A stretch of DNA of 43,280 nucleotides from a virus, in the IMG/VR virus record IMGVR_UViG_3300046694_000166, positions 1 to 43,280 of that record, one strand, 5' to 3'. This document shows, piece after piece, positions 1 through 43,280 of the stretch; position 1 is the stretch's first letter, and every line of letters begins with the position of its first letter. The notes beneath the pieces are model-generated. The model was not told where the DNA came from. It saw nothing but the letters and a program-made list of their open reading frames with translations, and did no database searches. A program made the translations under genes and the position numbers.

Positions 1-1341
1 CTGCGCTACCACAACGGCTGTGCAGCAGGGTCGCAAGTGTGCGGGGATGCGTCGTCTTCGGACTACGCCTGGAACGTCAATTTCAACAACGGCAATTCCG
101 ACTGGAACAACGTCAACAACAAGGCGTTCGTGCGTGCGGTGCGCGCGCCCAGTGAGTGTCAGGGAAGCCCGGGCGTTTCGCTCCGGGATCTGCATCAAGC
201 ATGGAAGGTTGCGCGTCGCAATAAGCGCGCGAGCGGCAATCAGCTCGCGTTCGAATCGAACTGGATCGACGAACTGCTCGATCTCCAGAAGCAATTGACC
301 GACGGCACCTGGTCGCCACGGCCAACCACCTGTTTCATCGCCCAGCGCCCGAAGGCGCGCCAGATCCACGCGCCTGACTTCGCCGATCGCGTCGTACACC
401 ACTGGCTTGTGCCGCAGCTAGAAGCGATCTACGAGCCGGCGTTCATTCACGACAGCTACGCGAGTCGGCGCGGCAAGGGAACGCATAAGGCTGTCGACCG
501 GCTGCATGATTTCATGCACGAGGTCCACAGCGGCCAGGGCGGCGGCTGGTACCTACAGTTGGACATCGCCAACTTCTTCAACAGCATCCATCGCCCTACG
601 CTGTGGTCGATGCTCAAGAAGCGGCTGGAGCGTTCCGCGCTAGCAGATGTCGCTCTCCGGGCCTCGCACGCCTTGCTCCGTCATCCTGTGAAGGCCCAGG
701 GTGTCATCCACCGGTCGACCGCTGATGAGCGCGCAAGGGTGCCGATGCATAAACGCCTGGAGAACGCTGCACCAGGCTGCGGCCTACCGATCGGTAATCT
801 CTCCAGCCAATTCTTCGCGAATGTATATCTGGACCAGCTCGACCAGTTCGTGAAGCACACGCTGAAGGCAAAGCGGTATCTCCGTTTCGTCGACGACTTC
901 GTGCTGGTGCACCGCGACCGCGCGGTGCTGGAGGAGTGGAAGGAGCAGATCGAGGCCTTCCTCGAGCGCGAGCTCCGGCTGAAACTCAAGGATGACGTGC
1001 GCCTGAGGCCGCTGTCCGTCGGCATCGATTTCCTGGGCTACATCGTCTATCCGACGCACCGCCGCGTGCGTCGTCGTGTCCTGCATCACGCACACGAGGC
1101 GTTGCGCGCATGGCATGCGGCCCATGTCCGCGACGGCAAAGCCTGGGCGTCACCGGCGGATCTGCGGCAGCTCAACGCCGTATGGGCGAGCTACACGGGC
1201 CACCTTGCACACGCCAGCACATACAGGTTGGTGCAACGCATGCTCGCTCGCCAACCATGGCTGGCCTCGCTCACATCCACAAAGCGTCGCTTCAGCCATC
1301 AGCTGGAAGGGCGGCGCATCACGATCAAGGTGAAACGCTGA
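1..1341 (+). CDS. DGR reverse transcriptase (main part; ORF begins at 43145 across the circular join)
   Basis: This is the reverse transcriptase of the diversity-generating retroelement. It copies the template-repeat RNA with adenine-specific errors. Read across the join from ATG 43145, the product is 449 aa. Visible RT motifs are motif A YLQLDIANFF with Asp191, LPIGNLSSQ at about residues 265-273 (the IGxxxSQ form typical of DGR RTs), and the catalytic FVDDF with Asp301-Asp302. The first ~54 residues are encoded by the template repeat and are unlikely to belong to the polymerase fold; RT-like sequence begins at about SLRDLHQAWK. The gene follows avd with a 4-base ATGA overlap and is followed by a small ORF sharing one base with its stop codon. 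An internal start after the TR cannot be excluded, but no in-frame ATG with a ribosome site is evident there. Assignment as a DGR RT is very secure; the exact start is less so. Confidence 0.95.
   Translation: MRYHNGCAAGSQVCGDASSSDYAWNVNFNNGNSDWNNVNNKAFVRAVRAPSECQGSPGVSLRDLHQAWKVARRNKRASGNQLAFESNWIDELLDLQKQLTDGTWSPRPTTCFIAQRPKARQIHAPDFADRVVHHWLVPQLEAIYEPAFIHDSYASRRGKGTHKAVDRLHDFMHEVHSGQGGGWYLQLDIANFFNSIHRPTLWSMLKKRLERSALADVALRASHALLRHPVKAQGVIHRSTADERARVPMHKRLENAAPGCGLPIGNLSSQFFANVYLDQLDQFVKHTLKAKRYLRFVDDFVLVHRDRAVLEEWKEQIEAFLERELRLKLKDDVRLRPLSVGIDFLGYIVYPTHRRVRRRVLHHAHEALRAWHAAHVRDGKAWASPADLRQLNAVWASYTGHLAHASTYRLVQRMLARQPWLASLTSTKRRFSHQLEGRRITIKVKR
49..153 (+). repeat. DGR template repeat (TR)
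   Basis: This 105-bp TR matches two variable repeats at 37867-37971 and 42578-42682. It carries 24 adenines, 20 of them in AAC/AAT/AAG codons, the usual layout for adenine mutagenesis. All differences from the VRs fall on these adenines. It ends in the GC-rich block 131-153, followed by GAGTGT where both VRs have CAGTAA; this is the expected TR-version versus VR-version of the initiation-of-mutagenic-homology site. Most of it is repeated at 43202-43280 because of the circular overlap. It lies in frame inside the reverse transcriptase ORF. Confidence 0.95.
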
Positions 1342-1589
1342 TGCCCAGCCATCGCCATCCCCGCAAGGTTCGCGGCTTCACCTGGTCCCGCGTGCCCGGC
1401 GCCGCCGGGAACATCACCTACCGCCTTTTCCGCCACGACATGCGCGGCGTTCTCCACTGCGCCATCGTGCGGTTCGATCCTGACAAGCAGGACCGCCGCG
1501 CGATGGCCGCGAAGCTCAAGAGCAAGCGTCACGACCTGCGCAACCAGGTCGACACCATCGACCTACAACTGCTTGGAGTCACCCAGTGA
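1341..1589 (+). CDS. Small basic protein downstream of DGR RT, unknown function
   Basis: An 82-aa protein rich in Arg, Lys and His with no domain I recognise. The ATG shares its first base with the RT stop codon (TGATG), and its own stop overlaps the GTG of the ParB-like gene, so it is tightly embedded in the operon. The C-terminal half (RRAMAAKLKSKRHDLRNQ) looks like a charged helix. Its basic character and position suggest possible nucleic-acid binding or a DGR accessory role, but that is inference from context only. It could equally belong with the ParB-domain gene. Confidence 0.7.
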   Translation: MPSHRHPRKVRGFTWSRVPGAAGNITYRLFRHDMRGVLHCAIVRFDPDKQDRRAMAAKLKSKRHDLRNQVDTIDLQLLGVTQ

Positions 1590-3460
1590 TCACACTCATC
1601 CCGCTTTCGAAGCTTGTCGCGTCGCCGCGCAATGTGCGCAAAACTGGCGGTCAAAACATCGACGACCTGGCCGGATCTATCCGCGCCCACGGACTGCTGC
1701 AGAACCTGACAGTGGCCGCGAAAGGCGGCAAGTACGAAGTCGTCGCCGGCGGCCGTCGCCTGCGCGCGTTGCAGCGCATCGAGAAAGAGGACGGCAAGCT
1801 TCCCGATGCGCTCAAGGACGGCATCCCCTGCATGTCGGTGCTGAGCGACGATGCACACGATGCCAGCCTGGCCGAGAACGTCGTGCGCGAGGCTATGCAC
1901 CCCGCCGACCAATTCGACGCGTTCCATGCCATGGCGGGGCGTGGCCACGGCGTATCGGCAATCGCCGCCGCATTCGGTTGTCCCGAGTCGGTGGTCAAGC
2001 AGCGCCTGAAGCTGGCCAAGGTGGCGCCAGCGCTGATCGAGGCCTATCGCAATGGCGACATGACGCTCGAAACGCTGCAGACCTTCAGCATCACCGACGA
2101 CCGCAAACAGCAGGAGCGGGTGTGGAAGGAGGTCGGGCACACCAACAAGGAGTACCAGGCGGAGAACGTGCGGCGCCGCCTGGTCCAGAGCGAGATCGAC
2201 TTCAACGACAGCGACGAAGCGCAATTCGTCGGCCTCGCGGCATACGAGGCCGCTGGCGGCTTCATCCGCCGCGACATGTTCACCAAAGCGATCTACCTCG
2301 ATCGCGGCCTGGTCGAAAAGCTGGTGACGGTGAAACTCGACGACATGAAGGCCCGGATGAAAGCCGAGGGCTGGGCCTGGGTCGAGGTGAAGCGTGACTA
2401 CGTGTCGATCTACAGCTACCAGCGCAAAAAAAGCACCAAACGCGAGGCCACGACACAAGAGACGGACGCGATCGCAGCCCTGCAGGCCGAACGTGCACCG
2501 CTCCAAGAGCGTATCAACGTCCTGCAGGCGATCGAGGACGAAGACCTGCAGGCGGCAACGCAGGACGAGTTCGACCAACTGGACGTGCAGGTCAACAACA
2601 TCGACAGCCGGATCGCGCTGATCAAGGATGGCATGGTCACCTTTTCGGCCAAGGCCATGGCGGCGTCTGGCGCGATCATCGAGCTGGCGCACAACGGCCT
2701 GCGGATCCACCGTGGCCTCGTAAAAGAGGCGGACGCCAAGCGCGCGGCCAAGGAAAAGCAGAAGGCCAAAGCCGGCACCACCACCGAAGCGCCCGAGTCG
2801 ACCGAACTTTCGAACACCATGGTCGAGCGGCTCACCGGCTACCGCACCGCTGCTATGCAGCTCGAGCTCGCCACGCGCGCCGATGTCGCCCTGGCGTTGC
2901 TCGCCTGGGAGCTTCTGCAGAGCACCTTCGGCTGCCACTGGTACCTCCACCTGGGCAGCATAAACGCCACGCCGTACCGCGGCGCCGATTTCCAGCGCCT
3001 GGGCGTGGCCATGGACTATGCGCCAATCGAAGATCTCTTTCAGATGGTCGAGGAGTGGCGCGGCCAGATCCCGGACGATGCCGGCGACGCCATGCGCTGG
3101 GTGTTCGACCTGCCGGCGGACGAACTGCAGAACCTCCTGGCCATCTGCACGGCATGCGCGTTCAACGGGACATTTGGCTCTGGCGCCATGCAGTCCCAGC
3201 GCAGCAAGCGCGATATGGTCGACATCCTCGTGGAACGCCTGCAGTTCGACATGGCCAAGCACTGGGCCCCGACCGTCGATAGCTTCCTCGGCGCCGTGCC
3301 GAAGGCCATCGCGATCGAGGCTGTCACCGAGGCCTGCGGCGCCGAGAACGCGAAGAAGCTGGGGCCGCTCAAGAAGGGCGACGCAGCCAAACTGGCCGAG
3401 GAGATGCTCGAGGATCGCGGTTGGCTGCCGGCGCCGCTGCGCGTGACCGTCGCGGCATAA
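1586..3460 (+). CDS. ParB/RepB/Spo0J-domain protein, 624 aa
   Basis: The N-terminal ~150 residues look like a ParB CTPase/partition domain: PRNVRK at 14-19, VVAGGRRLRAL at 52-62 (the GERR-type box), AENVVRE at 96-102 (the ENLQR-type box), then a helix-turn-helix (HGVSAIAAAFGCPESVVKQR). About 470 further residues follow, including a coiled-coil stretch near 290-350 and a Lys/Ala-rich segment near 385-400. Proteins of this long form are known from plasmids, integrative elements and phages. No parA partner is present, so plasmid-like segregation is unproven and a regulatory or DNA-loading role is possible. The GTG start overlaps the preceding stop (GTGA). It lies between the DGR and the integrase genes. 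Confidence 0.85.
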   Translation: MITLIPLSKLVASPRNVRKTGGQNIDDLAGSIRAHGLLQNLTVAAKGGKYEVVAGGRRLRALQRIEKEDGKLPDALKDGIPCMSVLSDDAHDASLAENVVREAMHPADQFDAFHAMAGRGHGVSAIAAAFGCPESVVKQRLKLAKVAPALIEAYRNGDMTLETLQTFSITDDRKQQERVWKEVGHTNKEYQAENVRRRLVQSEIDFNDSDEAQFVGLAAYEAAGGFIRRDMFTKAIYLDRGLVEKLVTVKLDDMKARMKAEGWAWVEVKRDYVSIYSYQRKKSTKREATTQETDAIAALQAERAPLQERINVLQAIEDEDLQAATQDEFDQLDVQVNNIDSRIALIKDGMVTFSAKAMAASGAIIELAHNGLRIHRGLVKEADAKRAAKEKQKAKAGTTTEAPESTELSNTMVERLTGYRTAAMQLELATRADVALALLAWELLQSTFGCHWYLHLGSINATPYRGADFQRLGVAMDYAPIEDLFQMVEEWRGQIPDDAGDAMRWVFDLPADELQNLLAICTACAFNGTFGSGAMQSQRSKRDMVDILVERLQFDMAKHWAPTVDSFLGAVPKAIAIEAVTEACGAENAKKLGPLKKGDAAKLAEEMLEDRGWLPAPLRVTVAA

Positions 3461-4158: not shown

Positions 4159-5184
4159 ATGGGACGCCGACCGAGCCGCCCAGATGCTGTACCCAATTTG
4201 CGGGTGCGCAAGAAGGGGAAGAAGGTTTTCTACTACTACGACCACGGCGGCAAGCCACGTCGGGAAGAAGCGCTCGGCAGTGACTATGGCCTGGCCATTA
4301 CACGCTGGGCCCAGATCCGGCGCGAGGGCACCGAGAAGCCCAAGGCCGTGGTGACCTTCCGGTATGTCGCGGATCTCTACCGCGCCGAGGTCATCCCGAC
4401 CAAGCGCCGCGGTACTCAGGCTGACAACGAGAAGTCGCTCAAGCAGTTGATCACCTTCTTCGACGATCCGCCGGGACCGTTCGAAGCGATCACGCCCCAG
4501 TTTGTGAAGCAGTTCCTGGAGTGGCGCGGCGAGTCAGCGAAGGTGCGCGCCAACCGTGACAAAGCGCTGCTGTCGCACATCTGGAACTGGGCACGCGAGA
4601 AGGGCTACACCGCGTTGCCGAACCCGTGCGCCGGCGTGAAGGGGTTCAAGGAGAGCGGCCGCGACGTCTATATCGAGGACGTCGACTACCAGGCCGTGTG
4701 GGACGTCGCCGCTGCGCCACTGCGCGATGCGATGGATCTCGCCTACCTCACAGCGCAGCGCGTGTCCGACACGCTCAGCATGGATGTGCGAGACATCCGC
4801 GGCGGGTTCCTACACGTCAAGCAAAGCAAGACCGGCGCGAAACGCCGCATCCAGATCATGGGCGAGCTGGAAGAGTTGCTCGCGCGAATCGCCGATCGCA
4901 AAGCCGGCTACAAGGTGCATGCCACGCGCCTGGTGGTGGGCGAGGATGGCCAGCCGTGGAGCTACGACCGATTGCGTCGCGCGTTCCGTGCCGCATGCAC
5001 GTCGGTTGGCATCGAGCCGGAAGCATTCCAGCTGCGCGACCTTCGCGCGAAGGCAGCCACCGACAAGGCGGACTCTGCCGGCGACATCCGGGAGGCGCAG
5101 AATCAGCTGGGCCACACGTCGGTGGTGATGACGGAGCAGTACACCCGGAACCGTCGTGGCGCGAAGGTCACGCCGACGCGTTGA
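4159..5184 (+). CDS. int: Tyrosine-family site-specific integrase
   Basis: A 341-aa phage integrase catalysing attP x attB recombination. An N-terminal arm-binding region (about 10-50) is followed by a SAM-like core-binding domain (about 65-165) and the catalytic domain. Catalytic residues visible are Arg201 (AQRVSD), Lys224 (KTGAKRR), Arg293-x-x-Arg296 (LRDLRAKAATD, with Arg in place of the usual His), His319 (LGHTS) and nucleophile Tyr328 (EQYTR). It is the last gene of the rightward operon and is followed within 250 bp by four copies of a 10-mer and a tRNA-Leu-like sequence, the expected attP neighbourhood. Confidence 0.95.
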   Translation: MGRRPSRPDAVPNLRVRKKGKKVFYYYDHGGKPRREEALGSDYGLAITRWAQIRREGTEKPKAVVTFRYVADLYRAEVIPTKRRGTQADNEKSLKQLITFFDDPPGPFEAITPQFVKQFLEWRGESAKVRANRDKALLSHIWNWAREKGYTALPNPCAGVKGFKESGRDVYIEDVDYQAVWDVAAAPLRDAMDLAYLTAQRVSDTLSMDVRDIRGGFLHVKQSKTGAKRRIQIMGELEELLARIADRKAGYKVHATRLVVGEDGQPWSYDRLRRAFRAACTSVGIEPEAFQLRDLRAKAATDKADSAGDIREAQNQLGHTSVVMTEQYTRNRRGAKVTPTR

Positions 5185-5187
5185 AAG

Positions 5188-5419
5188 TGGTCCGCAACGC
5201 GATTTGCCTTGAGCTGCACCAACGGTTTTCAGGCTTCGCCGTCACCATCTTTGCGGACCAAAGATATTCGTAACCCGTTGATCGGTGGCAATTGTCGTCT
5301 TGGACTCAAAATCCACTGGCAGCGATGTCGTGTAGGTTCGAGTCCTATCACCGGTACCAATGACTTACGTGTGTTTTGCACTTCCAAAGTTGGTCCGCAA
5401 AATACAAGTTGGTCCGCAA
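5188..5419. other. attP region: four 10-mer arm-type sites around a tRNA-like core
   Basis: The 10-mer TGGTCCGCAA occurs exactly at 5188-5197, 5391-5400 and 5410-5419, and inverted at 5251-5260. Two copies lie to the left and two to the right of the tRNA-like segment 5281-5359. This matches the arrangement of integrase arm-type binding sites flanking a core in tyrosine-integrase phages. The assignment rests on repeat layout and adjacency to int. Confidence 0.75.
5281..5359 (+). other. tRNA-Leu(CAA)-like sequence, probable attP core
   Basis: The segment folds much like a type II tRNA: acceptor strands 5281-5287 and 5349-5355 pair over seven positions, the anticodon loop CTCAAAA contains CAA at 5307-5309, a variable arm GGCA/TGTC follows, then a T arm with TTCGAGT and a 3' ACCA. 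Only ~12 bases separate the acceptor strand from the anticodon stem, too few for a normal D arm, so it is unlikely to be a functional tRNA. It is best explained as the phage copy of the 3' part of a host tRNA-Leu gene used as attB. Confidence 0.6.
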
Positions 5420-5433
5420 TTCGAACGAAAGAG

Positions 5434-5456
5434 GCTGCCGAGAGGCGGCTTTTTTT
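5434..5456 (+). terminator. Rho-independent terminator after int
   Basis: Stem GCTGCC/GGCGGC with a GAGA loop and a run of seven T. It ends the rightward operon just before the convergent end of the late leftward operon. Confidence 0.85.
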
Positions 5457-5481
5457 GTGCCCTCTTTCTGGGCTGGAGCGC

Positions 5482-5790
5482 CTAAAGCTGCCGGGTCTCG
5501 TAGCGATAGAACTGGCAGTAGCCTGGATGCGGCTGATGCGGGAGGCTCAGGCCATGGAGGGTTGCCCATTTCTCGACCCGCTGAACGCCCTTTTCCCTGG
5601 ATGCAACTTTGTAATTCTTGACCCCGTCGGAGCTGGCGTTGGGGTACCAGAACACTCTCCATTCGCCCTCCTGAATGCAAAGGGTCGCGAACGGCCCGGT
5701 CGTGTGCGGCTCGATCAGCCGGGCGATATAGAGATCAAGGGGCTCATCGTTTAGCACGACGCGCTCCCATTCGATGGTTATTAGACTCAT
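5482..5790 (-). CDS. Hypothetical protein at end of late operon
   Basis: A 102-aa acidic/aromatic protein (MSLITIEWERVVLNDEPLDL start) with no family I recognise and no signal peptide or membrane segment. It is the last leftward gene and faces the integrase operon terminator. The ribosome site before the ATG is weak. Position after the tail-tip genes suggests a virion-associated or late accessory role. Confidence 0.65.
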   Translation of the reverse strand: MSLITIEWERVVLNDEPLDLYIARLIEPHTTGPFATLCIQEGEWRVFWYPNASSDGVKNYKVASREKGVQRVEKWATLHGLSLPHQPHPGYCQFYRYETRQL

Positions 5791-5838
5791 GCCGGCAGCG
5801 TACGCCGGCGCCGTCTCACACCATGAGCATGGCCTCGA

Positions 5839-6330
5839 TCAGGCCAGCAGGGCCCCGAGGTTGGATGCCGCCCCTACCTCTGCAACCGACGAGATCGCGT
5901 GCCGGATGCTCCAGTTGGCCAGGCTGGTATCCGACCAAGGAATCATCGGCTGAGTCACCTCCGTGCCGTTGGCGTCGATCGTTACCTGAGTGATCGGCTC
6001 GCCCAGCACGGCCAGCAGATGGCACTTCGTCAGCGCATCGATGCCATTGGTCGAGATCTCCGCCAGCGAGCTGAGGTGGTTGAACTCCACCACCACCTCC
6101 GAGCCGTTCGGGCACAGCTTGGTGCTGCCGTCCGCATTAATCAGGCGTCCGGACGCATAAAACACCAAGCCGGCGTTGTTCTCCTGCCAGGTGCGCTCGA
6201 CGTACACGGCAACGCAGTCTCCCGTATCGAGTGTGACCGCGACTTCGTCGGTGTAGAGACCGGGGTCGCTGATGGCAGTGGCGTCCGCTGCGCGCGGCGC
6301 CGGCTGGGGATTGGTGACGGTGTAGCCCAT
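5839..6330 (-). CDS. Hypothetical tail-associated protein
   Basis: A 163-aa protein following the tail-tip gene by eight bases, with GTGAGG upstream of the ATG. The sequence is beta-rich in character (alternating polar and hydrophobic residues, many Thr/Val) with no recognised motif. In siphovirus genomes this slot often holds a tail-tip accessory, fibre or decoration protein. That role is inferred from position only. Confidence 0.7.
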   Translation of the reverse strand: MGYTVTNPQPAPRAADATAISDPGLYTDEVAVTLDTGDCVAVYVERTWQENNAGLVFYASGRLINADGSTKLCPNGSEVVVEFNHLSSLAEISTNGIDALTKCHLLAVLGEPITQVTIDANGTEVTQPMIPWSDTSLANWSIRHAISSVAEVGAASNLGALLA

Positions 6331-6339
6331 GCTATTGCC

Positions 6340-9300
6340 TCACGGTTTGGCGATGACGTTGTGGGAGTAAATGCGGTGCGACGGATCCGCGCCGGCGGCG
6401 TAGCTGCAGCCGCCGTAGTGCTGGTGGCACACCAGCTGCTCGCCGATCTCCACGACGCTGGCCACGACCTCGACACCCTTGTCGGTGATCACTTCGAGGC
6501 CCTCCATCTCCGGCGCGTACGTCATGCCACCGCTTGGCAGGTCGAACGGCGTGGACGCGCTGCACTCGAGGACGGCGCCGCCGGACGTGGTGAGCCGCAC
6601 GCAAGGCTGCGTCGACATCTCCATGCCCCGCAGGCGCCGACGGAACTTGCGCAGGCCGGAGGATGGGATGTCCAGGCAATCGGCCAGGAAACCCTTGACC
6701 GCTTCCGACGCCTGGGTGTCCTGGTCGAGCCACATGTGCGCGCAGACACAGGATCCGGAGCCACCACCGCCGCCACCACCGGATCCGCCGCCACTCGTCG
6801 GATACGCCACCTGCACCGGTCCTACGTAGACGTAGCCGTCGCCGGTGTACAAGTCGTTGCCGTTGGTCGTCGCGATGAGCGTTTGCACGCCACCGGAGAA
6901 CTTAGGGTCGTTCATGTAGAGGTAGTACGTCGGCGTCGTGCCGTTCGTACCGCTGACACTCACGCTGCTCGCATTGTAGGCGGTCGACACACTGCCATTC
7001 AGCACGGTGAAGGCGCCGACGCTGATCGTGGCAGTTGCCGGCGATCCCGCAGTGGCCGTGTAGCTGATCGTCGTCGGCACCTTGGCCGGGATGTTCGTGA
7101 CGGTGCGCTGCTTGAGATTTCGCTGGTCACCGATCTGCGCGCCACTTCCAGCCACGCGGACATCATTGACCGAGCACCATACGTAGTTGAAGGCCGCGAA
7201 TTGGCTGGCTGTGCCGCAGTAGCAGCCAAGGATCATATACGCAGCTGTCGGTGGGACGACACCGCTTGCCGTCACCGCTTGCCACGTAGGCGACGAGCCT
7301 CCGGCCGCGATCGAGCTGACGAACGTGCCGTTGTTCGTCGTGAACGTCACTGTGATCGCCGAGAAGACGCCACTGGCCGCATCCATCAGGCCGCCGACGC
7401 TGATGCTGTCGCCGGGATTCACTGCGTAGCGCCGGTTCGTAACCATGGCCCCGGGCCCGCTACTGGGCGCATGGACTACGAGGTACTGGCTGCCGACAGC
7501 TGGCGACGGCGACGCGCCCTGCAGAGCCGCACCCGTCGTTGAAGGGCTTGCCGACCAGCCTGGAATGGCACCGGTGCTGTCTGGAGCCAATTGGAAGGTA
7601 GCGTTGTCAACGGTCAGCGCGCTTGCTGCGGTCGACTGTTGGACATTGCGGACGTAAGTTGCGCCGTCGGGCACCTCGTCGACGCTGTTTGGCTGGTAGG
7701 TCCATGCCATGTCGTCGAAGTTGTAGAAGCCGTTGGTGTTCGTGCCAAAGCCGACACCAGGCGACATGATCGCAAAGGCGGCGTTCGATGGCGCAGTGCC
7801 TGCGACGGAGAGAAGCTGCGTCGAGTTGCCCACCGTCCCCGAGCTGACAGGCGACGCCGGCGACGCGATGTCTGAGCCGTTGATATCCTGAAACAGAATG
7901 CGGATCGCGGGTGTTCCTGTCGGCGACGAGATGCCTTTGACCTTGCAAGTTGCCTTGATGATCTGGCCAGGCACGACAGGGGCTTTGAAGGCGTTACGCA
8001 GGAAGGTGGTCGTGGTACTTCCCTTGTGCACGGCGTACGTTGTCGTGCCGGCATTCGGCCCGTTCGTGCCGGTCTCGCCGTACCAGTTGGCGGCGTCCGA
8101 TTCCGGCGTCCAACCTTGAAGGCCGAGATCGAAGCCAGGGTTCTGGATACCGACGAGCGTCTGGTTCGACGTCACATCGGCACCAGGCTGCGCCGGCTTC
8201 AAAGAATCTACCGACTGCCCGGTGGTGTAGTTGACCTGCCCTGCGGCTGTGACGAACTGCCCGAAGAGGTTGTCGAATCGCGCACCCCAGCTGGCGATCG
8301 TCTGTGCCGATGCCGCGGAATTGGAGGCCTGCACATAAGCGAAAGCCGTCGCGTAGCTCGTGCCAGCCGGGACCGTGAACTGGTTGTTGGCGTAATTGTG
8401 GTACGCGCTGGTGCCAGTCGTGGCTCCAGATATACCGGCAACCATGGTGCCGACCTGGGTACCGGCAGCGTTGAAGAAGTTGAGGCCTAGATAGACGTTG
8501 AAGCTGATGTTGGCGCCGTTGCCACCGGCCGAGAAGGTGAAAATGTCGCCGCTCAGGGAGACCAGCTGGCCGGCCTGCACATAGATCGGCGCCGACGAGA
8601 CAACGCAGCTGATGCTGGAGTTTGCAGGAACGGACGTGCCGGCCGCAACGTTGAGCAGCAGATTGTTCGGCCCGACGTCAGTGGTGTTCGCGTCGCGCGA
8701 GGCACTGAAGCCGGTGCTGATGGCCGACAGATACCACGAGTCGCACACCGGCATGTTCAGGGCGGTGACGTTGGCGGGCGCGCGGATGTTGTTCAGTTCG
8801 AACGAGGGGTTCGGTACGAAATTGGAGCCGGACGCTGGCGTCGCATACTGGCCGGCCAGTTGGTCGTAAAGGCGAGGCGGCGCCAGCACATCCGATGCGC
8901 CGAGCACATGGCTGTAGGCCGTGACGGCGGACAGCTGCTCCATGCCAGCGCCGAACGTGTTGAAGCTGACGAACTTGAAATACGTCGTCGCACCGCGCTT
9001 GCCGCGGTCGTAGGGGATGCGAAAGATCGCGTCATCGATGCGCGCAAACACATCGCCGGTAACGTGCGCCTGGGAGCTCGATCCGAAGCCGCCGCGGCGC
9101 AGATAGCTGAGCCCATACGACAGCGTGCCCGTGAGCGTTGCGTTCTCGAAGGCGATGAACTCACCGCCGCCTGCACCGCCCACGAAAGCGAACTGGCGCC
9201 AGTTGTCGGCGTCGGCCTGGGTGCCACCGGTGAGCTGGCCACGCAGGAGGCTGACGTTCATCGTGTTGGCCGTGTCCGGATCTGCGCCGGCCGCCAGCGA

Positions 9301-37290: not shown

Positions 37291-37532
37291 AACCGCTGCT
37301 CTCGATCTTCCACACGCGCCGCCAGAGCTTCCACGGCTGCGATCAGCCCACGGAGGCGGAACGGATGGCGCGCTACAGCGCGCGCCACGCCGAAGAGATG
37401 CAGCAGCGCGAGAACGCCGGTGCCGCCGCTCCCCGTGTGCGCCTGGTCGACGGCCGTCCGGTGCTCATCGCACTCGACGGCAAGCCCAACGCGCTGCCGA
37501 AAGACCAGCAGAAGTCCGAAGACCAGCAGTAA
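37287..37532 (+). CDS. Small protein, unknown
   Basis: 81 aa from ATG 37287 (MKPLLSIFHTRRQSFHGCDQ), with a charged helix (TEAERMARYSARHAEEMQQR), a short beta-like RVRLVDGRPVLIALDGK and a polar tail. It is directly upstream of the first DGR target gene. No family is recognised. Confidence 0.65.
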   Translation: MKPLLSIFHTRRQSFHGCDQPTEAERMARYSARHAEEMQQRENAGAAAPRVRLVDGRPVLIALDGKPNALPKDQQKSEDQQ

Positions 37533-37557
37533 CCACGATTCCATCAAGGAGAAAAGC

Positions 37558-37977
37558 ATGTCCCGTTTCACGAAGCTCGACGCCGCCCTGCAGCCACTTC
37601 CCGCCGATGCCACCGGCCATGTCGCCGTGTTGGACAACCAGCTCAACCTTATCTGGAGCGTCGACAACGTCGGCGGCAAGCGCCTGAATTGGGCTGAAGC
37701 GAAGGAAGCCGTGGCCACGCTCGACCTGGGCGGCAAGACCGACTGGCGCCTGCCCACCGTCGAGGAACTCTTTCTGCTCGCCGATCGCACGCGCTTCGAG
37801 CCCGCGATCGACACCGACGCCTTCCCGGCTTGTGAGTCGAGCTTCTACTGGAGCGGCACTGCGGATGCGTCGTCTTCGGACTGCGCCTGGGGCGTCGGTT
37901 TCCACGGCGGCAGTTCCGGCTGGAGCGACGTCGACGACGAGGCGTTCGTGCGTGCGGTGCGCGCGCCCAGTCAGTAA
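37558..37977 (+). CDS. DGR variable protein 1 (DUF1566/C-type-lectin-like)
   Basis: 139 aa from ATG 37558 with AAGGAGAA upstream. The body matches DUF1566/Lcl C-terminal-type domains: LNWAEAKEAV, KTDWRLPTVEEL, FPACESSFYWSG. The last ~37 residues are encoded by VR1 and end RAVRAPSQ. Such folds hold diversified residues on a ligand-binding face. No signal peptide, lipobox or transmembrane helix is visible, so a cytoplasmic or virion-borne role is more likely than self-export. It is transcribed with early recombination genes, away from and opposite to the tail genes. The ligand is unknown. Confidence 0.9.
   Translation: MSRFTKLDAALQPLPADATGHVAVLDNQLNLIWSVDNVGGKRLNWAEAKEAVATLDLGGKTDWRLPTVEELFLLADRTRFEPAIDTDAFPACESSFYWSGTADASSSDCAWGVGFHGGSSGWSDVDDEAFVRAVRAPSQ
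37867..37971 (+). repeat. DGR variable repeat 1 (VR1)
   Basis: Aligned to TR 49-153 with no gaps. Fifteen differences are found, all at TR adenines: 14 A to G and one A to C (TR position 85). The 81 non-adenine positions are unchanged. VR1 encodes the C-terminal end of the 139-aa DUF1566-like protein. Homology extends a little upstream, to TR 46. Confidence 0.95.
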
Positions 37978-42184: not shown

Positions 42185-42688
42185 GTGCTGCCGTCCCTCA
42201 ACGTGAAGAACCTACACGTCCACCTGTATATGCCGGCGCTTCCGTCCGTCGCGGTGCCCGCCGACCTGGCCGAACTCAAGAGCGCTGTGGCCGCGAACCA
42301 GGCGACCGACCACTTTATCAAGCGCAACGACGGAGCGACGGTGCTCGACACGACGACCGGTCTGGAGTGGTCGGCCGACGCCATCGCGACCAACGCCATG
42401 ACTTGGGACAACGCCAAGCAGGCAGTGGTAAACGCCAACGTCGCGGGTCACAACGACTGGCGCCTGCCCACCGTCCAGGAGCTGCTCACGCTGGTGGACT
42501 ACGAGCGTCGTGATCCCGCTATCAACACGGATCTCTTCACCTGCAAGTCCAGCTACTACTGGTCATCGACTCCCTGCGCGTCGTCTTCGGGCTACGCCTG
42601 GGGCGTCTATTTCTACTACGGCGATTCCGGCTGGTGCGGCGTCGACTACTGGGCGTTCGTGCGTGCGGTGCGCGCGCCCAGTCAGTAA
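42185..42688 (+). CDS. DGR variable protein 2 (DUF1566/C-type-lectin-like)
   Basis: 167 aa from GTG 42185 with AAGGAGAA upstream. An N-terminal ~45-residue extension (VKNLHVHLYMPALP, then a short helix ADLAELKSAVAANQA) precedes a DUF1566 domain: TTGLEWSADAIATNAMTWDN, GHNDWRLPTVQELLTLVDYE, CKSSYYWSSTPC. VR2 encodes the last ~36 residues, ending RAVRAPSQ. Diversified positions are rich in Tyr, Gly, Asp, Cys and Trp, suitable for binding. No secretion signal is visible. It sits 25 bases upstream of avd. Confidence 0.92.
   Translation: MLPSLNVKNLHVHLYMPALPSVAVPADLAELKSAVAANQATDHFIKRNDGATVLDTTTGLEWSADAIATNAMTWDNAKQAVVNANVAGHNDWRLPTVQELLTLVDYERRDPAINTDLFTCKSSYYWSSTPCASSSGYAWGVYFYYGDSGWCGVDYWAFVRAVRAPSQ
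42578..42682 (+). repeat. DGR variable repeat 2 (VR2)
   Basis: Aligned to TR 49-153 with no gaps. Sixteen differences are found, all at TR adenines: 10 A to G and 6 A to T. Asn codons of the TR have become Tyr, Cys, Gly, Asp and Trp (Lys) codons. VR2 encodes the C-terminus of the 167-aa DUF1566-like protein directly upstream of avd. Confidence 0.95.
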
Positions 42689-42713: not shown

Positions 42714-43148
42714 ATGAGCTACGCCCTCCCACCCATTGTGAAGACAGCAGAACGCCTGCTCTTTGAGATCGAGCAGGCGGTCCGTTGTTTCGCGCGATAT
42801 CACAAGTACAGCACGGGCTCGACGCTGCGTGAGCAGGCGATGAAGATCGCCCAGCTCACACATCGAGCCTGGCGTGATCGTGCCCGTCAGGCGCAATGGT
42901 TGGAGGGCTTGGCATCGGCCATCGACGATCTTCGCATCACCATGCAGTTAGGCAGCCGTCTTCAGGCGTTCCGCAGCTTTAGTCAATTCGAGCAGTTGGC
43001 TCGCACATTGTCTGAGCTCGGACGACAGGTAGGCGGCTGGCGCAAGCAGCAATTCCCCAAGGGCCAGAATGACCAGCGCTCTTCCGCTGGCCAGCGCGCC
43101 CAGACACTGAGTACCCGCAACGCCTCGACGTATGAGGCCAATCCATGA
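42714..43148 (+). CDS. avd: DGR accessory variability determinant (Avd, four-helix bundle)
   Basis: A 144-aa basic, all-helical protein between the VR2 gene and the RT. It has the four-helix-bundle pattern of Avd/23S-intervening-sequence-like proteins (FEIEQAVRCFARYHKYSTGS, FRSFSQFEQLARTLSELGRQ, GGWRKQ). Avd forms a pentamer that binds the RT and template RNA and is needed for mutagenic retrohoming in phage BPP-1. The Ser/Gln/Asn-rich C-terminal tail is likely disordered. The TGA overlaps the RT ATG. Confidence 0.9.
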   Translation: MSYALPPIVKTAERLLFEIEQAVRCFARYHKYSTGSTLREQAMKIAQLTHRAWRDRARQAQWLEGLASAIDDLRITMQLGSRLQAFRSFSQFEQLARTLSELGRQVGGWRKQQFPKGQNDQRSSAGQRAQTLSTRNASTYEANP

Positions 43149-43280
43149 CGACGCTGCGCTACCACAACGGCTGTGCAGCAGGGTCGCAAGTGTGCGGGGA
43201 TGCGTCGTCTTCGGACTACGCCTGGAACGTCAATTTCAACAACGGCAATTCCGACTGGAACAACGTCAACAACAAGGCGT
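43145..43280 (+). CDS. 5' end of the DGR reverse transcriptase ORF, running off the window end
   Basis: ATG at 43145 overlaps the TGA of avd (ATGA, 43145-43148), the arrangement expected for translational coupling. The frame is open to the end of the window and continues, through the identical sequence at 1-127, into the reverse transcriptase. The first three codons (43145-43153) lie only here. This segment includes most of the duplicated template repeat. Confidence 0.8.
   Translation, partial: MTTLRYHNGCAAGSQVCGDASSSDYAWNVNFNNGNSDWNNVNNKA
43154..43280. repeat. 127-bp end overlap identical to 1-127 (circular contig)
   Basis: The last 127 bases equal the first 127. The reading frame of the reverse transcriptase and the avd-RT coupling are continuous across the join. 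A 127-base overlap is a common de Bruijn graph k-mer size, so this is best read as the closing overlap of a circular assembly and not as a biological terminal repeat. The unique genome length is 43,153 bp. Confidence 0.9.

Follow-up and report, generated by a model that had tools for sequence, protein, structure and literature searches.

Where does the reverse transcriptase (RT) of a diversity-generating retroelement (DGR) begin when the template repeat (TR) upstream of it lies in the same reading frame, and can one stretch of RNA be message and template alike? Here we address this question at a phage locus (IMG/VR record IMGVR_UViG_3300046694_000166, positions 1 to 43,280), in which the RT frame opens at the end of avd and continues through the entire TR. 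The whole stretch of 43,280 nt that was analysed is referred to as the window. Its last bases (43154-43280) are an exact direct copy of the 127 bases 1-127, so we treat the window as a circular phage contig of 43,153 bp, and the RT open reading frame (ORF) therefore spans the contig junction. The DGR comprises the following features:

37420..37977, plus strand: target protein 2, Lcl_C domain, VR at the C-terminus (VR 37863-37971)
42185..42688, plus strand: target protein 1, Lcl_C domain, VR at the C-terminus (VR 42578-42682)
42714..43148, plus strand: avd, bAvd-like, last ~30 codons within a structured RNA (bAvd profile, synonymous constraint)
43134..43137, plus strand: GAGG, Shine-Dalgarno-like, 7 nt 5' of ATG 43145, in the 3' arm of helix P2 (motif count, covariation)
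43145..43153, plus strand: first codons of the RT ORF, with ATG 43145 sharing the sequence ATGA with the avd stop TGA 43146-43148; the ORF resumes at 1 across the junction
1..1341, plus strand: remainder of the RT ORF, 449 aa in total, RT fold from about 178 (RVT_1, AlphaFold2)
45..153, plus strand: TR, inside the RT ORF (the match to the first VR spans 49-153, that to the second 45-153)

The locus has the hallmarks of a DGR. Mismatches between TR and VR, which are diagnostic when confined to adenines, fall exclusively at template A in both VRs (16 for TR 49-153 against VR 42578-42682 and 15 for TR 45-153 against VR 37863-37971, with 0 elsewhere in either comparison). Both VRs end Lcl_C proteins, that is, they lie at the 3' end of a known variable fold. 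A DGR-type RT is located beside the TR (RVT_1, E 8.2e-17) and has matches to BPP-1 brt and to further RTs of phage DGRs; TR and RT adjoin each other in the window and in related loci. The avd product matches bAvd with an E value of 6.7e-8 and 33.4 bits, which is under the curated cutoff of 40, and its position and size fit avd. The A-specific mismatches, which alone bear on activity, speak for an element that was active in the past. Both Lcl_C targets (37420-37977 and 42185-42688) are small, lie on the plus strand near recT and avd, far from the minus-strand portal, terminase and tail genes, and are unlike tail fibres in appearance. The long ORF downstream of the RT (1586-3460) presumably resembles a ParB-type protein.

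The frame from ATG 43145 is open to 1341 and encodes 449 aa, of which residues 20-54 stem from the TR; the ATGA overlap with the avd stop, the length of the ORF, its coordinates and the TR-encoded residues had all been given correctly in a preliminary description of the locus. The RT ORF carries the TR in the frame of the target protein: at both targets the VR, by its coordinates, has the same phase as the TR within the RT ORF. The order target-avd-TR-RT, with the TR between avd and RT as the same description had stated for Bordetella phage BPP-1, is common to BPP-1 and the window, as are the adenine-only mismatches. In-frame start candidates for the RT are ATG 43145, GTG 37 and, within the TR, GTG 130 and GTG 139; a search of the window from the end of the TR to the RT domain found no ATG, GTG or TTG.

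Related loci were collected by RT matches (181 loci, 175 of them with a TR/VR call). One scan used one TR-derived and one RT-core pattern, and a second used RT-core patterns only, from which the best 80 of 131 were taken, ranked by a query that included the N-terminus. The bacterial-genome scan was able to catch out-of-frame members because its second pattern is an RT-core pattern conserved in the clade. The clade of the window was defined as loci at least 54% identical to its RT (113 raw, 96 after removal of redundancy at 97% identity), a bound that was chosen after viewing the identity table and that falls in a gap from 51.2 to 54.3. An RT tree of 151 tips recovers it as monophyletic, although support is modest (0.74). 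Two loci (L153 and L162) without avd or TR were dropped, which left 94 loci to be counted; L001 and L147, which do not pass the start test, stayed among them as failures, and L040 was excluded from the codon tests and retained in the start and frame counts.

In 92 of the 94 non-redundant relatives, a start in frame with the RT lies one base ahead of the avd stop (91 ATG, 1 GTG). The distance from the avd stop to the RT core takes 24 distinct lengths, all of which, in all 92 loci, are 2 mod 3, and parsimony on the RT tree requires at least 42 length changes. The linker from the TR to the RT core, which lies outside the coding demands of the target, is likewise 2 mod 3 in 91/92; only L040 departs, with slips in both halves that together return it to frame. 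From the start to the RT the frame is free of stops in 92/92 relatives, as opposed to 0 and 1 of the 92 for the two alternative frames. The preliminary description had proposed looking for frame-disrupting changes in homologous TRs; there are none among the 92 clade loci, and stops do occur in 33/58 more distant loci. A GRGG motif lies within 18 nt of the avd-overlapping start in 90/92 relatives, at a spacing of 7 in 83. The phase of the TR equals that of the target in 93/94 clade loci with a TR call, where the target frame was set by the adenine phase, itself derived from the TR; calling it by the longest open frame gave wrong results in GC-rich DNA and was replaced. An open frame through the TR alone is uninformative because BPP-1 and 25/58 sister loci are open too, and was dropped as evidence, so that the evidence counted is limited to how the frames relate, to the register being kept as lengths change and to the control with the other two frames. 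On these grounds, translation of the RT very probably passes through the TR.

Three loci deserve separate mention. In L040 (3476-3655) the TR is in a shifted frame and the stretch from ATG to RT is open by way of two compensating shifts; its mismatches (15 at A, 1 other) indicate past A-specific mutagenesis. L001 has no avd stop: a single open frame of ~600 codons (4551-6347) runs from avd through the TR into the RT, a P2-like hairpin is kept before ATGACGA, and the locus is possibly a natural Avd-RT fusion. In L147 the avd stop is out of register with the RT, and the TR holds one ambiguous base.

Outside the clade the picture is different. Among 58 sister loci, defined by a TR no more than 160 nt upstream of the RT and counted with redundancy left in, the RT frame is interrupted by a stop within the TR in 33, the TR lies in a frame other than that of the RT in 47, and it is both in the RT frame and open in only 5. 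The RT start of these loci is often inside the TR, and the RT of Pseudomonas phage Cruim01 (L017) is annotated from within it. Because the TR contains stops in 33/58 distant loci, we regard the fused frame as a derived trait of the clade and not as a general property of DGRs. A similar arrangement is found in the unrelated group of Vibrio phage VP58.5 and the Pseudoalteromonas phages ACA1/ACA2, where the RT starts with ATGA at the avd stop and the TR forms the RT N-terminus; for the ACA phages, the overlap of RT start and avd stop and the translation of the TR as an N-terminal extension of the RT have been reported (Viruses 2023, PMC10612066). In each of the 14 VP58.5/ACA loci with a TR call and at least 73% RT identity, the TR is in frame, the frame is open and the start overlaps the avd stop; in most relatives at 56% RT identity or less the frame is closed. 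The RT of this group is ~33% identical to that of the window and belongs to another branch, its TR is unrelated, and the TR is separated from the RT core by 117 nt as opposed to 24 nt in the window. The fused frame arose separately in the VP58.5/ACA group.

The stretch around the RT start is not only coding. An alignment of 64 of the 92 loci, thinned at 90% identity, supports a structured RNA with the following elements:

43054..43153, plus strand: 5' part of the structured template RNA, mostly avd tail (covariation, 64 sequences)
1..165, plus strand: 3' part of the structured template RNA, including TR 45-153 (covariation)
43054-43057 and 162-165: 5' and 3' arms of the outer helix
43061-43064/43098-43101, plus strand: P0a
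43070-43078/43085-43093, plus strand: P0b
43103-43108 (avd tail) and 155-160 (just after the TR): 5' and 3' arms of P1
43114-43120 (avd tail) and 39-45 (leader): 5' and 3' arms of P3
43122-43126/43134-43138, plus strand: P2 hairpin, 3' arm with GRGG 7 nt before the RT ATG
43153-6/20-26, plus strand: P4 hairpin, spanning the junction

The structure consists of 40 pairs in 7 helices, with 93.1% of cells paired compared with 75.7% in shuffled alignments; 33/40 pairs show changes on both sides, and 0/500 shuffles were as high on any of the covariation measures. Pairing collapses when the partners are slid by one column, a control that leans toward the chosen helices because these were picked after viewing the alignment and an RNAalifold fold; the double changes are independent of helix choice. 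Since P1 pairs the avd tail with the first bases after the TR, it encloses the leader and the TR; pairing holds in 99.5% of the P1 cells, and double changes number 33 at one of its column pairs. Synonymous divergence in 27 disjoint pairs is ~0.37 in avd and falls to 0.13-0.15 over the last 30 codons of that gene; the values are 0.10-0.17 for the leader, 0.07-0.16 for the TR and 0.19 for the linker. The avd tail lacks a third-position excess (p = 0.22), unlike the remainder of avd, and thus evolves like an RNA. The preliminary description had placed a spacer RNA in the RT coding sequence after 153; this does not hold, as the conserved RNA is mainly 5' of the TR and extends only ~12-15 nt beyond it. 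A long constrained spacer downstream in the RT was considered and rejected: the first ten codons of the RT core have a synonymous divergence of 0.285, and later codons are at the background of about 0.37. The interpretation of the RNA from ~90 nt before the avd stop to ~12 nt past the TR as the 5' domain of the template RNA together with its closing helix is well supported.

No Rfam family matched the window RNA. RT-15 (RF03018) had no match in window positions 42850-43280 at E <= 10 and reached the gathering score in 0/22 clade sources; Phage_DGR (RF03022) was found downstream of the TR neither in the window nor in 21 other clade loci, BPP-1 being the only match. R1, a covariance model built from the 5' part, matches the window at 43041-43203 and 13/60 non-clade sources at E <= 0.001, where most matches end at the TR start or no more than ~11 nt from it. 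As R1 thus detects the RNA just 5' of the TR in sister DGRs, the RNA is older than the fused frame. At the spot of the RT start, the closest sister RNAs read CCAUGAUAA in L053 and L052 and CCCUGAUAA in L051; the GRGG arm is present in sister RNAs, and AUGA in two of the three closest, where the RT is not read from there. Conservation of AUGA and GRGG is therefore confounded by RNA constraint and is no proof that the start is used, and the frame evidence is unaffected. A search for P1-like stems in 17 loci yielded ATCACT/AGTGAT in several, which is suggestive; having no control, it is not counted as evidence.

The frame, the position of the start, the covarying RNA and their overlap can be read directly from the sequences. 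We consider it likely that this phage DGR, which has two targets and belongs to a Lysobacterales-associated clade, has had its RT gene extended upstream through the TR to a start overlapping the avd stop, with this stretch of the transcript serving also as a folded RNA.

Other explanations have to be weighed against this one. The RT might in truth start at GTG 37 or inside the 3' end of the TR, at GTG 130 or 139, with a passive frame upstream. These codons could indeed start shorter forms of the RT, 87/92 relatives have some in-frame start within the TR or linker, and in 33/58 sister DGRs the RT must start in or after the TR, as annotated for Cruim01. We nevertheless judge this unlikely, because 5/92 relatives lack any other start in the TR or linker (in 3 of them the avd-overlapping start is the sole one), because GRGG precedes just 16/195 of the other in-frame starts (background 6.4%), and because a passive frame would not hold its register through so many changes in length. 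That the open frame is a by-product is disfavoured and very improbable: a TR kept stop-free in the target frame in GC-rich DNA would yield a fused frame by chance one time in three, and both the near-universal agreement of TR and target phase and the openness of the BPP-1 RT frame through its TR fit this reading; yet leader and linker are in frame although they lie outside the TR, hardly any locus is open in either of the alternative frames, and the TR of L040 has left the target frame with the path from ATG to RT still open. An assembly or frameshift artefact, conceivable for an IMG/VR-type virus record with an ORF across the contig junction, is refuted by the relatives and can practically be dismissed, given that the junction repeat is exact and that 26 of the 92 relatives are non-redundant bacterial-genome loci arranged alike.

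The N-terminal extension could also have a function as a protein, for instance in binding Avd, RNA or the target. Its leader has recurrent residues such as MTKPRY..GC..GSQV, and there is a weak third-position excess in the leader (p = 0.021, 16 codon columns) and the linker (p = 0.043, 6 codon columns). A functional extension is quite unlikely all the same: an AlphaFold2 model (446 aa, from 26 aligned RTs) gives residues 1-56 a mean pLDDT of about 30, with all values below 50 and no secondary structure, and a confident, ordered RT from residue 61 of 446, the synonymous sites of the leader are constrained as an RNA would predict, L040 encodes a frame-shifted TR peptide and keeps the RT frame, and the VP58.5/ACA RTs bear an unrelated one. 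Given the model, the shifted TR peptide of L040 and the unrelated one of VP58.5, the lectin-like N-terminal peptide envisaged in the preliminary description finds no support as a functional element, and the TR-encoded peptide, which is predicted to be disordered, is probably a by-product and not a lectin domain. The weak third-position signals would be compatible with a minor protein role for leader and linker.

It is well supported that the reading of the RT begins at ATG 43145 and takes in leader, TR and linker. The RT would be made by reinitiation after avd, aided by the ATGA overlap and the GRGG site in P2, with ribosomes passing through the TR. The first ~58 residues, encoded by leader and TR, would be an unstructured by-product, and the TR would be obliged to remain stop-free in the RT frame. 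The proposed overlap of template RNA and RT mRNA on one molecule is supported by the stop-free frame throughout the clade. In its template form the RNA would be held closed around the TR by P1; while ribosomes move along it from avd into the RT, it could not be a folded template. As the covarying RNA overlaps the RT start site, competition between translation and templating or priming is plausible; that the two are mutually exclusive, with avd translation setting the balance, is speculative. We tentatively suggest, as a possibility that is rather less likely to be true than not, that the avd-RT transcript acts as a ribosome-controlled switch, a translated copy being mRNA and an untranslated copy closing P1 and becoming the template for mutagenesis. 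A ribosome ending avd would unfold P0, P2 and the 5' arms of P1 and P3, lay bare GRGG and reinitiate on the RT. In that case, the supply of RT and of template would be set reciprocally by avd translation on one molecule.

In the best-studied DGR, template RNA and RT coding sequence are adjacent, whereas evolution has kept them superimposed in the clade of the window, so that one stretch of RNA must serve as mRNA, template and structured RNA. BPP-1 brt starts 144 nt after the TR, and the window RT before it; the RNA of BPP-1 (RF03022) lies between TR and brt, and the recognised structure of the window 5' of the TR instead of 3'. The spacer RNA of BPP-1 has been described, with no clear ribosome-binding site before brt according to the portion of the source considered (PMC12875486). 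In structural group 3 of DiGReF the TR overlaps an end of the RT ORF, and the RNAs of TR and RT were inferred to be transcribed separately; the part of this account covered here discusses neither frame nor translation (PMC3521204). The fused TR-RT arrangement is not mentioned in the sections covered of PMC6642488, PMC8144416 and PMC3091744, and a literature search of titles and opening abstracts, with key BPP-1 structure papers outside its scope, returned no description of the window RNA or of clade-wide frame keeping. Since the ACA case was noted in 2023, the fused frame is not a new idea; its conservation, its double origin and the RNA are what this study adds. The division of DGR transcripts between translation and templating becomes testable by simple mutations, and the RNA model provides a search tool for DGRs whose template RNA is absent from Rfam.

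R1 had no match at E <= 1 in six VP58.5/ACA comparison loci (L018, L021, L185, L194, L203 and L209) and none in 8 RT-15 loci. DGRs with RT-15, which include those of Cruim01, Burkholderia phage Magia and Shewanella phage vB_Sb_QDWS, among others, share with the window a structured RNA directly 5' of the TR and a TR against the 5' end of the RT; unlike in the window, the TR is out of the RT frame (offset 2 in the 8 RT-15 loci). The RT-15 RNA ends at the TR start in L006, L007, L016, L017, L019, L020, L022 and L023, and RT-15 is suggested to be the 5' domain of a DGR template RNA. In three further loci (L051:2484-2776, L063:911-1208 and L070:1647-1955), the R1 RNA and the TR are located ~750 to 1,100 nt 5' of the RT and form a separate template unit.
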